Assembly: GCF_007859315.1 (NCBI RefSeq) | Contig: NZ_VOHA01000007.1 | Span: forward strand, 248,001-312,000 | DNA from: Reyranella sp. CPCC 100927 | Lineage (GTDB): Bacteria; Pseudomonadota; Alphaproteobacteria; Reyranellales; Reyranellaceae | Reading direction: 5' to 3' | Length of the DNA: 64,000 nt | Part shown: positions 20,372 through 28,188 of the stretch, in pieces | Layout: every line of letters begins with the position of its first letter | How positions within the stretch are numbered: position 1 is the stretch's first letter | Made by a program: the position numbers and the translations under genes | The notes under the pieces: generated by a model | The model's input: the letters and a program-made list of their open reading frames with translations, nothing else | Database searches by the model: none | Told to the model about the DNA's origin: nothing

Positions 20372-21307
20372 TCACACCGCCATCGTGCGTTTCTGGTGGG
20401 CGCGGCCGATCTTGGCGGTGTCCTCACGATGGCCGGCGATCACGCGCACGCCTTCGTCGATCCGGGCGACGATGTTTTCCGGCGCACATCCCTCGAGGAA
20501 CGCCAGCCCACGCCGGCGGCAGGCGGCGAGAATGCGATCGCGCGCGTCTTGCATCTCGGGCGGGTAGGGATCGCGCGGGATCGTGGTGTAGCCCAGCGAC
20601 AGGCTGAGATCGCCGGGTCCCATCTCGGCGAAGCCGAGCCCCGGCACGTCGAGGATCGCCTCGCAGTTGGCGACGCCCTCCGGGCTTTCCAGCTTCACGC
20701 CCAGCAGCAGTTCTCCCTGCGGGTTGAGCGGCCAGGGATCGCAGCGCTGCATGTAGTCATCCGGCGCCAGGCCCCAGACCGGCGCCGCTGTCGGCTCCGA
20801 GCCGCGCCCGCGCGTGCCGACTCCGAGTCGCGCATGGTCATCCGGACGGCGCGCACCCCGGAGGCGTTCCAGCGGCGAGGGCAGGGCGGGATCGACGCCC
20901 GCCAGCTGGAACGGGTAGCGGCACGACTCGACGAACGCGCGCACCGCATCGGCCGTTTCGGCCTGGCACAGCAGGATGCCATGCACGCCGCGGCCCAGGA
21001 TCTGGCGGAACTGCCAGGCGTTGAACCGCACATTGGCGGCGTCGGTGCCGTTGACCGGTGCCTCGACGATCACGCCGGGCGTGCGGTGCCCCGACCGCGT
21101 CGGCCCGCCGTCGACCAGGCCACGCATGTATTCGGCCAGCCCCGCCATGTCGAAGGCGCCATGCTCCATGCCGACATTGATGTAGTCGGCCCAGGTACCG
21201 GCGTCGTGCCGGCCCTGGGCGTAAGTCAGCACATGGCCACTGTGCGGGCCGTCGTAGTAGATCGCCTGGCCCTGGGCCAGCAGCTCGATCGCGCGGTTGA
21301 TTCGCAT
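20372..21307 (-). CDS. HpcH/HpaI-family aldolase
   Basis: Class II, metal-dependent aldolase of the HpcH/HpaI (2,4-dihydroxyhept-2-enedioate aldolase) / citrate lyase beta family, 311 aa. Typical segments are WADYINVGMEHGAFDMAGL (variant of the usual DxEHG), GVHGILLCQAETADAVRAFVESCRYPF, LLGVKLESPEGVANCEAIL (metal-ligand Glu) and GLGFAEMGPGDLSLSLGY (metal-ligand Asp). ATG 21307 has GGGGA 6 bases upstream. A decayed copy carrying both ends of this gene lies at 26172-26345, on the other side of the large NTPase gene. Aldol donor and acceptor are unknown. Confidence 0.85.
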   Translation of the reverse strand: MRINRAIELLAQGQAIYYDGPHSGHVLTYAQGRHDAGTWADYINVGMEHGAFDMAGLAEYMRGLVDGGPTRSGHRTPGVIVEAPVNGTDAANVRFNAWQFRQILGRGVHGILLCQAETADAVRAFVESCRYPFQLAGVDPALPSPLERLRGARRPDDHARLGVGTRGRGSEPTAAPVWGLAPDDYMQRCDPWPLNPQGELLLGVKLESPEGVANCEAILDVPGLGFAEMGPGDLSLSLGYTTIPRDPYPPEMQDARDRILAACRRRGLAFLEGCAPENIVARIDEGVRVIAGHREDTAKIGRAHQKRTMAV

Positions 21308-21520
21308 GGAGCGTCCCCGGTTGGTATTTTGACCACATGGTTGTCGCTCTGGCCATCTTCTGCAAGCTTCTGGATCCCACAGACCGTATTGCTGCTCGGG
21401 CCTTCTCTCACTTTGACATCCAATGAAGCGGTAGGCGGCAAGTGCTGGTCGATATCGGCCCATATACACTCGCAAGTTGCTCAAATTTTTGTCTTCAAGT
21501 ATCACTGACCAGTGAGATTC

Positions 21521-21529
21521 TGATATGAT
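21521..21529 (+). promoter_or_regulatory. Extended -10 promoter element before the STAND NTPase gene
   Basis: TGATATGAT fits TGn plus a TATGAT -10 hexamer, 42 bases before the NTPase ATG, in an AT-rich leader unlike the chromosomal background. No strong -35 stands 17 bases upstream, as is common for extended -10 promoters. Tentative. Confidence 0.4.
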
Positions 21530-21570
21530 GAGGAAATACTACTCGCGAGACAGCAAGATCGGCAAAAATA

Positions 21571-24500
21571 ATGGTAGCGCTGGGTGAACTCCTCGCCGGA
21601 AAGTTGACCAATCTGCTGATCGACAGTGTCAGCAAAGGGCTACTGAAGCGAGTAAAAGATCGCAAAGCGTGCGCCGAACTTGGTGCCATCTGTGCTTCCG
21701 CGATTGAACACGCAGCCCGGCGAGCACCGCCTCTTGCCGAAGGATTGAGGTCCGCGAGCTTTTTGGATGGCATTATCCTGCCTGTCATGCGGTCTGCTCT
21801 TGAAGATCCTTCGCAGTTGATTCAACCAGAAGACCTTGCCAATCGTTACATCGATATGTTCGTTTTGCGCTTTGCCAAGGACGGAAATGTCGATGGGACA
21901 CTTTTGCGTGTATTCCAGACTGATCGCTCTACACTGATCTTGGCCTTTGAGGCGTTCTTCGTTTCATTGAAATCGGAACTGTACTGCTCAAAGCACTGGC
22001 GTGAAGTTGTGCATCACCAAACGACCGAAGCTCTGTTCGCCGATGTCAGTCGCGTGCGTGAGATACTTGAAGGTGAGCGCGCGGATGCCAGGATCACAGT
22101 GATCGATTTGAATCGTGCGCAGATTGATGCTGCTAAAGCCTCAGCGGATTTGCAGAACTGGCCGAAGGACATTTTGGGTGTGACACTCGAACGGCCATTG
22201 CTGCAGAGCCTCCTTAATCATATTGAGAAAACTCCTGCTGGAACGTCGCTCCTCATTGGTGAGGCTGGCTCGGGGAAATCTGCTCTGCTCGCTGAGATGA
22301 TTGAACGGCTCGTTGAGCGCGGAATCATACCCTTCGCCATCAAGGCCGACATGATCCCAGCAACAGTGACGGCACTCGACGAGGTGGGGTGCGCACTTGG
22401 CATGGTCGGCGACCTGGAGGATCAGATCGCCGCACTGGCGATGCATCGTCCGGTGGCACTGCTGATCGACCAACTGGACGCCGTGAGTAATGTCATGGAC
22501 CGTCGATCGGAGCGCATGAGACTGCTGCTACGCTTGGTCCGCAATCTCCGTGAGCGCTCCTCAGGCGGTGGGATTGCGCTACGTGTTCATGCCCTGATCT
22601 CATCGAGACCGTTTGAGGCTGCCCACGATGCCCGCTTCCGTCGCCTTGGTGCTCAAGAATTTCGTCTAGATTTATTCAGCGCCGAGCAAGTGGTCGAATT
22701 GCTTGGCGTATTGGGTATCGACCAGAGCGGCATCGATCCTGGCCTACGTCAAACATTACGCAGGCCGTTTGCGCTCAAGCTCTATGCGGACCTCGTCAAA
22801 CGTGGTGTCGACGTTTCGTCCCTCGGCTCCGCTTATCTGTTGGAGCGCTGGCTGGATACAGTAGATCTGGGTGCGCCCGACGAGCGGCGTGACTGCGTTG
22901 CCTTCATGGTTCAACTGGCGTCAGAGATGATTGAAACCGAGTCGTTGTGGCGCCCCTCCGATCGATTCGAACTGGAATTCCGAGACGCCATACGATGTTG
23001 CGAGGCGTGCGGTTTGATCCGCCGGAACGGAAACACGATCGGCTTTTCACATCAGACCTGGCTCGACGATTTTCAGGCCAAAGCCTTTCGGATTGGGACC
23101 GATCTCGCCGAATATGTGTGGCAAAATCAGGACAGTCTTTTCATCAGAGCGACCGTGGCCAGGGGCCTCCAACGCCTGCGCGCATATGATCAGCAATCCT
23201 TCGTGAGGGCACTGCATGCGCTGTTTCGTGCCAAGCGGACACGCCGTCACATCCACCACCTGATAGTTGACTTGATTGCCACCAATCCAACGCCCTTATC
23301 TGCCGAGGGCGGTTGGGTCGAGACGTGGGTCAGGACCGATTTCCCTCTGGCGAGCCGGGCGCTGCGCCAAATCGCCCAACGCTGGGAGGGATGGCGAGGC
23401 GCCCTGCGCGATGCACTGCCGGCAGTGATGATGCAGCATGACCTGCGCTGGCAGGCCGTTCAACTCCTGGCCGCAGAGGCATGCGTCGACTCTGATCATG
23501 TTTGGGGGTTGGTCAATCTGCACTGGGACGCAGAGCAATTTGATCTAATCGTATTTCAGCTTCTTGATTTGACCGGCCTTATAGGTAGGGGGGCCGCCGA
23601 CCGGCTCGACACAATCTTCGGCCGAACCACGGTTGATCAGCATAACGTTAGCAGACTTGTGAGCAGGCTAAGATCTGGCGGCCGTTACGAGGAGGCGATC
23701 AAAGTCGTCCAGCTCTGGCTCTCTCGCCAAGCGATCAATCGCGATCATCATCCCAAGCTCTATGAACTGGAAAAGCTCGCCGATGCAGCGCCGTTCGGCC
23801 TAGCTCGCACACTCGTCCCTTGGTTTCTGAAGTTGGCAACGGCGGAGGTCGAAGATCCGCACCGAGTGCGCGACGAGTTTCCCAGATCACGGTCGTTGCC
23901 GTGGGACTGGGACCATCCTCATGAACTCGGAAGTGTGTTTGGAGCCTTTCTCTCTGCGCTGGAGAAGTCGGTTGTTGATCATGCCGAAGAGGCGTGGTTC
24001 CTACTCGAACCGTTGTGCGAAGTCGAAGTCGATGAAATACAACAGGTGATCGCTGCGACCCTTATCGCTGCTGGACCTAAACTTGCCCCGAAATCGGTGA
24101 GATTCTTGCTGGATGATCCTCGCCGCTTCAACATAGGCAGTGTGCACGTTGATGATGAGAACAACGTAGGTCATCTCATTCAAGGTTGGCATTCTCATGA
24201 GCTTGTTGGAGTGATAGCCCCAGAACTCGATCGGAACGTTTTGTGCGAGCTTCGTGATAGCATAGAGCGCTGGGTACAGTATGGTCCGGAGGCGTTTGAG
24301 GCAGATGCCGAACTGAAGCGGTGCCGATTGCAATGGGCAGAGGAGGCACGGCTACCTCTCCTCGAACGGCTCCCGCGGCATGTCCTCAGTGCTCGCCGGC
24401 ACCGCCAAATAAGCGAGTGGCGCGCGAAACAACCGAAGATCAAAGGGCCGCCGAATGCTCGTCGCATGGCCTCGTTGGTCGGATCGCCGATGACTGCCGC

Positions 24501-26004
24501 GGAGATGGAGCGCGCGCATGATGATGCGATCGTGGGAATGCTCAACAAAATTGACGATCAGACGAGCGACCGAAGGTTTCACAGGCCGGCCAGTCGCGGT
24601 GGTGGTGTACGGCAGCTGGCCGATGCGTTCGGAGCATTTGGAAAGGTGCATCCGGCACGCGCTTGTCGAATCGCGCGCGAGCGCATGATTGTTGGCAAAC
24701 ACGAAAGGGCGGCGGGCGACTTAGTGCGCGAACTCGCTGGCGTGAACACGATTGATCCATCGGAAGTACTAACTTTGATACTCGATTTGTGTGGGCGAGG
24801 ATTTTCATCTGAATCCTGGCGGCAGGATGCAGCCCACGCACTTGAGGCATTGGCCGATCGCCTCAGAGGGCTGAATGATGAGGTCATCGAGGTTCTCGAG
24901 TCCTGGCTCGAGGGCGATGCTGACAAAATTGCCCAGCAAGTCTCATCTCGTCGAGACTTTGAAGCAAAGAATCGCAACTCGCGAAGCGAGAAACTCGAAA
25001 GCAGCTCGAATCCTATCATGTTTGGGCGGAGGGATCGGCTCGATATCCTCCCGCACCACAACTTCACGATCTTATCGGCAATTGCTGCTGGCCTTCTTTC
25101 GCGAAATGAGTCGGACTGTGACGGTTGGCTCACAGCCTTGGAGCGACACGCGAAGCGTCATGAGGATCCCGAAATATGGGCGGCTACGTTCATTTGGCGA
25201 GGTAGGGCGCTCGCATGGACAGACAAGGCAAGGTTTGGGGCCTTGATCAGACATCTTTGGATCAAGGATCCACTCATATTCACCGATCTTCGTTTGGCGC
25301 ATTTTCTGTGGCGAATGAGGGCTGCTGTACCCAAGGAGGTTCTCGGCGGCATCCTGGCAAAGTGGTTTTCATGCAGCGACGATGATGGTCGGGCTGTACA
25401 AGCGGCCGCTGAATTCGTTTATGCGGGCCACATCGTTGAACCTGAGAACGCCCTGTACTCCGTCTTGTGGACTGGCATCGATCGTTCGATCGACGCTGTT
25501 GAACTAGGTTTGCTGTTCAGCGCAGCCGCAGCTTGGCGAGAGAACGCCCCGACACTCAGGTTGCCGGCCCATGCGACTCTAATGGAAGCCGCGCGAGCAG
25601 ATAAGGGCGCGCATGCGCGTGCGATCTCAACTGCATTCAGTTGGTCGTCAAAGCTTCCGGCCGACGAACAAACTGCGGAGCTGATTCAGGCTGCAGCTGC
25701 TAGCACGCACTTCCTTCGAGCAGCACTTAGTGATCGCTTCATCGATAGCCTTCAAGGACTGCTTCTGTATCCTGGCTTCGATGAGGTTGTTCTCAGCGTT
25801 GCTGAGAAAGCCGTTGCGCTGGTTACCAAGGCGGAGCGGCACTCTGGGATGTGGATGGTCGGGCAAGATCTCGTTCACGTCACTGTGGCGCTTCAACGGA
25901 GCGGAGGTCCTCTTCGTGCGCGCGCCATGGATCTCTATGAAGACCTACTCGACGCGGAAGTCTACGGTGCCGAGGAAGCTGCGAGAGGCAGCTTGTCTCG
26001 ATAG
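21571..26004 (+). CDS. Large STAND-type P-loop NTPase, candidate defence protein
   Basis: A 1477-aa single-gene protein. Residues 1-200 are a mostly helical N-terminal region that I do not recognise. The NTPase core has Walker A GEAGSGKS at 230-237, Walker B ALLIDQLD at 296-303, a sensor-like LISSRPFE near 342-349 and a RRPFALKLYADL motif near 398-409 where STAND proteins have GxP. Residues 430-1477 look like a long array of helical repeats, the usual sensor region of STAND ATPases. GC content is visibly lower than its neighbours, its leader is AT-rich, and it lies between an aldolase gene and a decayed aldolase copy, so recent transfer is likely. An antiphage or signalling role is inference from architecture; no known effector domain is identified. 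Confidence 0.75.
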   Translation: MVALGELLAGKLTNLLIDSVSKGLLKRVKDRKACAELGAICASAIEHAARRAPPLAEGLRSASFLDGIILPVMRSALEDPSQLIQPEDLANRYIDMFVLRFAKDGNVDGTLLRVFQTDRSTLILAFEAFFVSLKSELYCSKHWREVVHHQTTEALFADVSRVREILEGERADARITVIDLNRAQIDAAKASADLQNWPKDILGVTLERPLLQSLLNHIEKTPAGTSLLIGEAGSGKSALLAEMIERLVERGIIPFAIKADMIPATVTALDEVGCALGMVGDLEDQIAALAMHRPVALLIDQLDAVSNVMDRRSERMRLLLRLVRNLRERSSGGGIALRVHALISSRPFEAAHDARFRRLGAQEFRLDLFSAEQVVELLGVLGIDQSGIDPGLRQTLRRPFALKLYADLVKRGVDVSSLGSAYLLERWLDTVDLGAPDERRDCVAFMVQLASEMIETESLWRPSDRFELEFRDAIRCCEACGLIRRNGNTIGFSHQTWLDDFQAKAFRIGTDLAEYVWQNQDSLFIRATVARGLQRLRAYDQQSFVRALHALFRAKRTRRHIHHLIVDLIATNPTPLSAEGGWVETWVRTDFPLASRALRQIAQRWEGWRGALRDALPAVMMQHDLRWQAVQLLAAEACVDSDHVWGLVNLHWDAEQFDLIVFQLLDLTGLIGRGAADRLDTIFGRTTVDQHNVSRLVSRLRSGGRYEEAIKVVQLWLSRQAINRDHHPKLYELEKLADAAPFGLARTLVPWFLKLATAEVEDPHRVRDEFPRSRSLPWDWDHPHELGSVFGAFLSALEKSVVDHAEEAWFLLEPLCEVEVDEIQQVIAATLIAAGPKLAPKSVRFLLDDPRRFNIGSVHVDDENNVGHLIQGWHSHELVGVIAPELDRNVLCELRDSIERWVQYGPEAFEADAELKRCRLQWAEEARLPLLERLPRHVLSARRHRQISEWRAKQPKIKGPPNARRMASLVGSPMTAAEMERAHDDAIVGMLNKIDDQTSDRRFHRPASRGGGVRQLADAFGAFGKVHPARACRIARERMIVGKHERAAGDLVRELAGVNTIDPSEVLTLILDLCGRGFSSESWRQDAAHALEALADRLRGLNDEVIEVLESWLEGDADKIAQQVSSRRDFEAKNRNSRSEKLESSSNPIMFGRRDRLDILPHHNFTILSAIAAGLLSRNESDCDGWLTALERHAKRHEDPEIWAATFIWRGRALAWTDKARFGALIRHLWIKDPLIFTDLRLAHFLWRMRAAVPKEVLGGILAKWFSCSDDDGRAVQAAAEFVYAGHIVEPENALYSVLWTGIDRSIDAVELGLLFSAAAAWRENAPTLRLPAHATLMEAARADKGAHARAISTAFSWSSKLPADEQTAELIQAAAASTHFLRAALSDRFIDSLQGLLLYPGFDEVVLSVAEKAVALVTKAERHSGMWMVGQDLVHVTVALQRSGGPLRARAMDLYEDLLDAEVYGAEEAARGSLSR

Positions 26005-26171
26005 TGGATCTGCACGCTATTGCGACTATGATCTGGTGTCGAAAGCGAACGACATCGCGAAAATTTCACGAATAGCATCGATCCAGCGCCTGGCTATGAA
26101 CAACTGACTTACATAAGCTTGGATGTGCTTGGGACGATTTCGGTAGGCTGCTGGAGACGGCGATGCGAGCA
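26005..26171. other. Gap after the NTPase gene, no gene seen
   Basis: About 170 bases of lower-GC sequence between the NTPase stop and the aldolase remnant. A frame overlapping the end of the NTPase runs into it but shows no recognisable protein. It probably contains the right junction of the inserted segment. No clear terminator hairpin was found. Confidence 0.5.
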
Positions 26172-26345
26172 GTTACTCGCGATGGCCGGCAGTAACGCGG
26201 ATACCTTCGCCGATAAGCGCGATATCCTCCGAGGAACGCCAACGCCTACTGTCCCTGGGCGCAGGTCAGGACGTGGCTGCTGTGCGGGCCGTCGGTAGTA
26301 GATCACCTGGTCCTGGCGCCAGCGGCTCGATGGCGCGGTTGAGAC
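26172..26345 (-). pseudogene. Decayed, internally deleted copy of the HpcH/HpaI aldolase
   Basis: Two blocks match the intact aldolase. Positions 26172-26247 resemble 20414-20516 (shared stretches GATGGCCGGC, CGAGGAACGCCA). Positions 26249-26345 resemble 21212-21304 (shared CTGTGCGGGCCGTCG, GTAGTAGATC, GCGCGGTTGA). The roughly 700-base middle of the gene is missing and small indels break the frame. The remnant has the same orientation as the intact gene and ends next to the TPR-like gene at 26367. It therefore brackets the NTPase island together with the intact copy. Alignment was made by eye. Confidence 0.75.
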
Positions 26346-26366
26346 GAGTTGGCGGCGTGGATGGTC

Positions 26367-26801
26367 TCAGGCGTCATCCTCGTCGTACGTCAGGTTACCC
26401 AGCATGGCGCGCCACACCAGGGCCATCAGGTCGATGGCGGCCGACAGCCATTGGTTGTTGTCCCAGTAGGCCGCCATGCGCATCATCCGGGCGCCGGCGT
26501 GCGAGGGTGTCAGGCGGATCGTGGTCGACAGGTCGGCGATCGCGGTCGGGAACTCGTCGCGAAAATACCGCCCCATGCCGCGATAGTAGTGGACCTGTGC
26601 CAGATCGGCCGGCGCCAGGGTGCCGGCCTGGATCAGGCGGGTGCAGGCCGGCTCGGACTCGTCATTGATCAGGAAGTCGGCGCAGTTCTTCCAGTCGGGC
26701 GTATCGGGCGGCACCGCCGGGGCAGGCGTTGCCACGGCCATCAGCGCCGCCAGGAGCGCCAGCACGACAAAACGCACGCGGTACACTGCCAATCCTGTCA
26801 T
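26367..26801 (-). CDS. Secreted small TPR-like protein, unknown function
   Basis: A 144-aa protein with an N-terminal signal peptide (RFVVLALLAALMAVATPAPA) and a short mature domain. Residues 30-55 contain two cysteines (KNCADF ... PACTRLIQ). The segment VHYYRGMGRYFRDEFPTAIADLSTTIRLTPSHAGARMMRMAAYW has the spacing of one to two tetratricopeptide repeats. The acidic tail ends in TYDEDDA. It is divergent from the acyl-CoA dehydrogenase gene and borders the aldolase remnant. I do not recognise a specific family beyond the TPR-like pattern; a periplasmic scaffold role is only a guess. Confidence 0.7.
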   Translation of the reverse strand: MTGLAVYRVRFVVLALLAALMAVATPAPAVPPDTPDWKNCADFLINDESEPACTRLIQAGTLAPADLAQVHYYRGMGRYFRDEFPTAIADLSTTIRLTPSHAGARMMRMAAYWDNNQWLSAAIDLMALVWRAMLGNLTYDEDDA

Positions 26802-26980
26802 TCGAGGATCGCCCCTGCGGGTGGGAGGGTGTCGTAGGGCCGTTGGACCGGGCCGTCAATGCAGCGCTCCAGGCCTTGGGTTTCCGCGCCACGAAACGCC
26901 ATCTCGCCACCATTGATGGCGCTGTCGGCGGAGGATACCGTGTCGGCCAACCAAGGCACTGCCGCCCGCGAGGACCGCCC

Positions 26981-28188
<1,208 letters not shown>

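Follow-up and report, generated by a model that had tools for sequence, protein, structure and literature searches.

A modular STAND NTPase of Reyranella, probably acquired horizontally, as a candidate single-gene immune receptor with a predicted all-helical N-terminal domain

In plant CC-NLR resistosomes and in fungal HeLo proteins, a hydrophobic N-terminal helix lies ahead of a STAND motor. Avs (AVAST) proteins have a tripartite layout, according to PMC12931631. The stretch analyzed here, 64,000 nucleotides of Reyranella sp. CPCC 100927 (contig NZ_VOHA01000007.1, positions 248,001 to 312,000; hereafter the window, in whose coordinates features are given), contains a STAND NTPase gene at 21571..26004 on the forward strand, the product of which, 1477 amino acids long, resembles the Avs proteins in its order of N-terminal effector, NTPase and C-terminal sensor, in the presence of different effectors on related cores and in being encoded by a single gene. 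Judged from sequence, this gene is very probably a horizontally acquired, modular, single-gene STAND immune receptor. The assignment is based on the different N-termini carried by a conserved core, on the defence and mobility genes neighbouring several relatives and on the signs of horizontal acquisition.

The open reading frame is intact, with an ATG start and 1477 codons; when 21305-26252 was shuffled 200 times by mononucleotides, the longest open run averaged 165 codons and never exceeded 360. The sequences GEAGSGKS (at 230) and ALLIDQLD (at 296) were both found, and we take them to be Walker A (residues 230-237, 22258..22281, +) and Walker B (residues 296-303, 22456..22479, +). Further motifs are ISSRPFE at 343, RRPFALKLY at 397 and GFSHQTWLDD at 491, the last presumably the conserved His motif of a winged-helix-like region (residues 491-500, 23041..23070, +); all 18 rows of alignment A5 have its F, H and Q. 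With the meanings that we assume for the sensor Arg, the downstream Pro motif and the His motif of STAND proteins, Walker A, Walker B and these three are all present and in order, and the ordered set is kept in all six aligned full-length members that share the helical N-terminus described below. By these ordered motifs the predicted protein is a member of the STAND NTPase superfamily. The NTPase and winged-helix-like region (residues 187-570, 22129..23280, +) was delimited by Pfam matches below cut-off and by phmmer, in which PDB 9n00 matched residues 187-570 at E 1.8e-20. Pfam returned only NTPase families for the whole protein, all below their curated cut-offs (AAA_16, 26.7 against 32.6 bits; nSTAND_NTPase5, 19.2 against 34; NACHT, 16.8 against 26.7), and no repeat family, although the initial annotation had read some 1000 residues as helical repeats. 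The remaining residues 571-1477 (23281..26001, +) form a region common to the relatives and, being conserved in proteins with different N-termini, constitute the putative sensor. The reading frame and the P-loop core of the initial annotation are thereby borne out, and the STAND layout that it proposed is supported by the ordered motifs and by the conserved core under different N-termini.

A profile scan of genome contigs revealed relatives at no fewer than 34 loci (at least 34, designated by L numbers) in many phyla. In blastp the core aligned nearly end to end, with 26-28% identity to L017-L023 and L046; identity was 45-47% to L015 and L016 and 24% in the core alignment to the SEFIR protein L008. 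When the N-termini upstream of the core were scanned against Pfam at 10 loci, six gave a family, namely TIR_2 (L017), HNH (L018), Mrr (L019, just at the cut-off), DUF4062 (L020), Abhydrolase_6 (L021) and PNP (L022), and no family was found for L029, L009, L012 and L026. PMC13174449 reports that DUF4062 is a TIR-like NADase of antiphage defence. Other N-termini were labelled by resemblance, as PNP (L011, L023-L025, L038), HNH (L046) and TIR (L027), or from record annotation, as SEFIR (L008) and caspase (L010). A tree was built of 18 cores bearing 10 N-terminus labels, one of them, "unk", standing for L043, which was later inferred to be helical. In this tree the window protein groups with L015, L016 and L043 at 100/100, the DUF4062 and hydrolase proteins (L020, L021) are sisters, as are the TIR protein L017 and the HNH pair, and TIR needs two origins.

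Part of this comparison counts against an exchangeable defence module. The labels change at least nine times on the tree, which is the fewest possible for ten labels; they therefore cluster, and the tree does not reveal frequent swapping within lineages. Hachiman, DISARM, Dsr1-like, integrase and resolvase genes lie beside some relatives, in a survey made without a random-locus control, and for the AbiV-like gene next to L016 PADLOC gave nothing at 1e-10. By eye, neither a recombinase nor a defence gene adjoins the window gene or L080. The defence contexts for which the initial annotation had suggested looking are found, defence and mobility genes adjoining several relatives. Two helical-type loci, L015:1027-5746 and L079:12668-16664, have a resolvase and three further genes in common (by eye), a block that looks like a mobile element carrying the receptor gene. 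A decayed helical N-terminus interrupted by stop codons lies at L083 (genome G1147), around L077 and L078, a sign that this domain is not only gained but also lost.

In the window the gene looks like one single insertion between metabolic-looking genes, all named by eye: an aldolase-like gene on the left, and on the right a small gene and an acyl-CoA-dehydrogenase-like gene. Its guanine plus cytosine (GC) content is 0.565 (0.664, 0.442 and 0.587 at codon positions 1, 2 and 3), against 0.662 in the remainder of the window, and a codon model trained on the window's other long genes skipped it. The insert of about 5 kb is bracketed by an imperfect direct repeat of the aldolase-like 5' end, with the intact copy at the left edge (21213..21304, -) and a second, decayed copy with indels at the right (26253..26346, -; 80 of 92 positions identical, 2 gaps); against genome G001 the intact copy matches at 83 of 92 positions and the decayed copy at 79 of 92. 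In G001, G002, G003 and G007 the orthologues of the two flanking genes, aldolase-like and dehydrogenase-like, are separated by about 0.95 to 3.9 kb, and no STAND match at E <= 1e-5 was found at any of these four syntenic junctions. G001-G003 are same-genus genomes within a set of 193 relatives, in which only three genomes, the own one included, had any match to the window protein; the N-terminus matched in one of 385 genomes of the class, its own. Because of the alien GC content, the lack of a match at the junction in four relatives and the flanking repeat, the gene was probably acquired horizontally. We infer that the duplicated 5' end fits single-crossover integration or integration at the 5' end of the aldolase-like gene; no integrase was seen at the insert site in the window. 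No defence or mobility gene was recognized beside the window gene by eye on the gene list, the neighbours not having been searched with a defence library, which fits the initial remark that the gene stands alone.

In G002 the same junction holds 3.8 kb of other genes (L068:2733-6505) of host-like GC content, 0.686, which may mark the junction as a variable site. Before the acyl-CoA-dehydrogenase-like gene, the loci L066 and L067 of relatives carry a gene resembling a metallo-hydrolase (by eye), and it is this gene that the window lacks at 26786-26981. A second match to the window protein was sought in its own genome and not found; a 1681-codon frame there (L001, G000:C12:376612-377103) holds another NACHT-domain match, one that exceeds the Pfam cut-off.

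The N-terminal domain (residues 1-186, 21571..22128, +) was defined from alignment A6 and an AlphaFold2 model, which consists of helices only (mean predicted local distance difference test score 76.8, predicted template modelling score 0.66). It is also present at seven other loci, giving eight rows in A6. Up to E 1, Pfam offered no family for residues 1-195, and Foldseek gave no match to the domain model at E <= 0.001. The initial annotation had allowed for a new effector at this position, and that proposal gains support from an all-helical model that has neither a Pfam nor a confident fold assignment. Helix 1 (residues 2-19, 21574..21627, +) lies within the protein's most hydrophobic 17-mer, none of 1461 windows exceeding residues 1-17, and the first helix is hydrophobic in all eight helical-type rows. 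The invariant polar residues of A6 are E36, E46, R60, S61, S63, D79, T117, S140, E153 and D186; His, Cys, Lys and Asn are absent from the invariant positions. Weak Pfam matches occurred in other A6 members, to DUF446 in three of eight (best E 0.015) and to RNAse_A_bac in two (best 0.079), and none in the window's own domain. NNH2 (PF22734) matched one of the eight helical N-termini at E 0.057, and a genome search with it gave 0/200, its controls being equally silent. The unassigned N-termini of L026, L036 and L039, not alignable to the window domain, likewise begin with the stretch of their protein that is the most, or nearly the most, hydrophobic; given these starts, membrane-acting N-termini may have arisen several times on these cores.

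A mechanism can be proposed in which residues 571-1477 would sense an infection-derived partner, with phage as the likely trigger. Partner binding would cause the ATP-bound NTPase to oligomerise, clustering the N-terminal domains and freeing their hydrophobic first helices, which might then insert into and permeabilise the inner membrane; the damage would kill or arrest the infected cell, presumably with an abortive outcome. The explanation as a whole, membrane attack included, is by analogy and tentative, somewhat short of an even chance. A stricter form, a bacterial resistosome in which a one-gene NLR-like receptor forms a membrane pore or channel with its helical N-terminus in place of the enzymatic effectors of its relatives, is rather doubtful. 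Several observations speak against membrane attack. The Foldseek and VIA-align lists for the domain contained no fold of the pore-former, CC or HeLo type, two of the eight A6 rows are fragments, and the hydropathy of helix 1 in the window protein is only 1.45 on the Kyte-Doolittle scale. The hydropathy test was picked after the sequences had been inspected, its control rows followed a slightly more permissive start rule than the test rows, and the hydrophobic helix may be merely the core of a helix bundle.

The main rivals to membrane attack are an adaptor and a tether. The all-helical model without catalytic-looking invariants would also suit an adaptor role, death-fold-like or EAD-like, in which the oligomerised receptor recruits an effector encoded by a separate gene. 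Precedents appear in two papers: the Caulobacter STAND protein LypB binds the CARD of LypA via its required N-terminal domain (PMC13236601), and helical coupling adaptors have been proposed in related conflict systems (PMC7159879). No common effector-like gene was seen by eye beside the helical-type loci, however, and the window gene was inserted singly, so that we consider an adaptor unlikely. The constant hydrophobicity of the first helix could instead mean that it does no more than anchor the receptor at the membrane, with the remainder of the domain or some unseen activity as the effector; in PaAvs5, as PMC12931631 states, a hydrophobic localisation segment is predicted at residues 2-30, and its deletion abolished protection. 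A Sir2 effector can be recognised in PaAvs5 as well, whereas no other effector is visible in the window protein, which makes a mere tether quite unlikely.

A new helical enzyme in residues 1-186 would be in line with the six Pfam-assigned N-termini among the ten scanned, all enzymes or likely enzymes, and with the DUF446 and RNAse_A_bac matches of other members. The window domain lacks these matches, however, and the invariant positions lack the four residues named above, and an enzyme is very unlikely. Metabolic-looking neighbours (by eye) would suit a housekeeping regulator of the MalT type. This is the most improbable of the alternatives, for the spread among related genomes is patchy, the junction is free of matches in four relatives, the same core bears different effectors and no DNA-binding domain is among the Pfam matches of the window protein up to E 5. 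The modular immune receptor is retained, and for it the single-gene defence proposal of the initial annotation has become more plausible, as far as sequence can tell, through effector variety, defence neighbours and horizontal acquisition.

Of its comparison with STAND sensors such as Avs, the tripartite layout holds and membership by sequence does not. Avs2 of PADLOC matched the window protein at E 0.043 over residues 225-251 only, and the core profile matched the solved Avs2 9o4e at E 0.88 in the P-loop only; with similarity confined to that level, membership was rejected. The group shares a NACHT-like P-loop domain with bNACHT proteins, Pfam NACHT matching 16 of the 18 core members at E <= 0.01, and NACHT/bNACHT membership of the window protein was likewise rejected on its sub-cut-off score. 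The PADLOC candidate system PDC-M54A matched the window protein weakly (E 4.6e-4) and six relatives at 1e-9 to 2e-15, but the best stretches are confined to the NTPase and winged-helix part of its 1621-1657 positions. Among solved structures, the STAND-type protein PDB 9n00 (with 9n01 and 9yix an "AAA family ATPase" of 1523 amino acids) comes closest by profile similarity; it has the NTPase and winged-helix-like region in common (core profile E 4.3e-45) and one co-linear sensor block (E 0.0015; about residues 926-1036, 24346..24678, +, ends approximate). The profile search aligned these parts only, and the N-terminus was unmatched; 9n00 is far closer to a caspase-annotated Tolypothrix protein (E 3.7e-194). 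The plasmid gene for the latter (L010:6783-11909) is flanked on one side by a gene annotated as trypsin-like peptidase and on the other by a further caspase-annotated gene. Plant CC-NLR and fungal HeLo proteins, which gave no sequence or fold match to the window protein, serve as a working analogy only. The STAND group described here retains a single long sensor under many effectors, and no enzyme can be recognised in one of its N-terminal domains; if this domain permeabilises membranes, the receptor would be a direct one-gene bacterial counterpart of the plant CC-NLR resistosomes.
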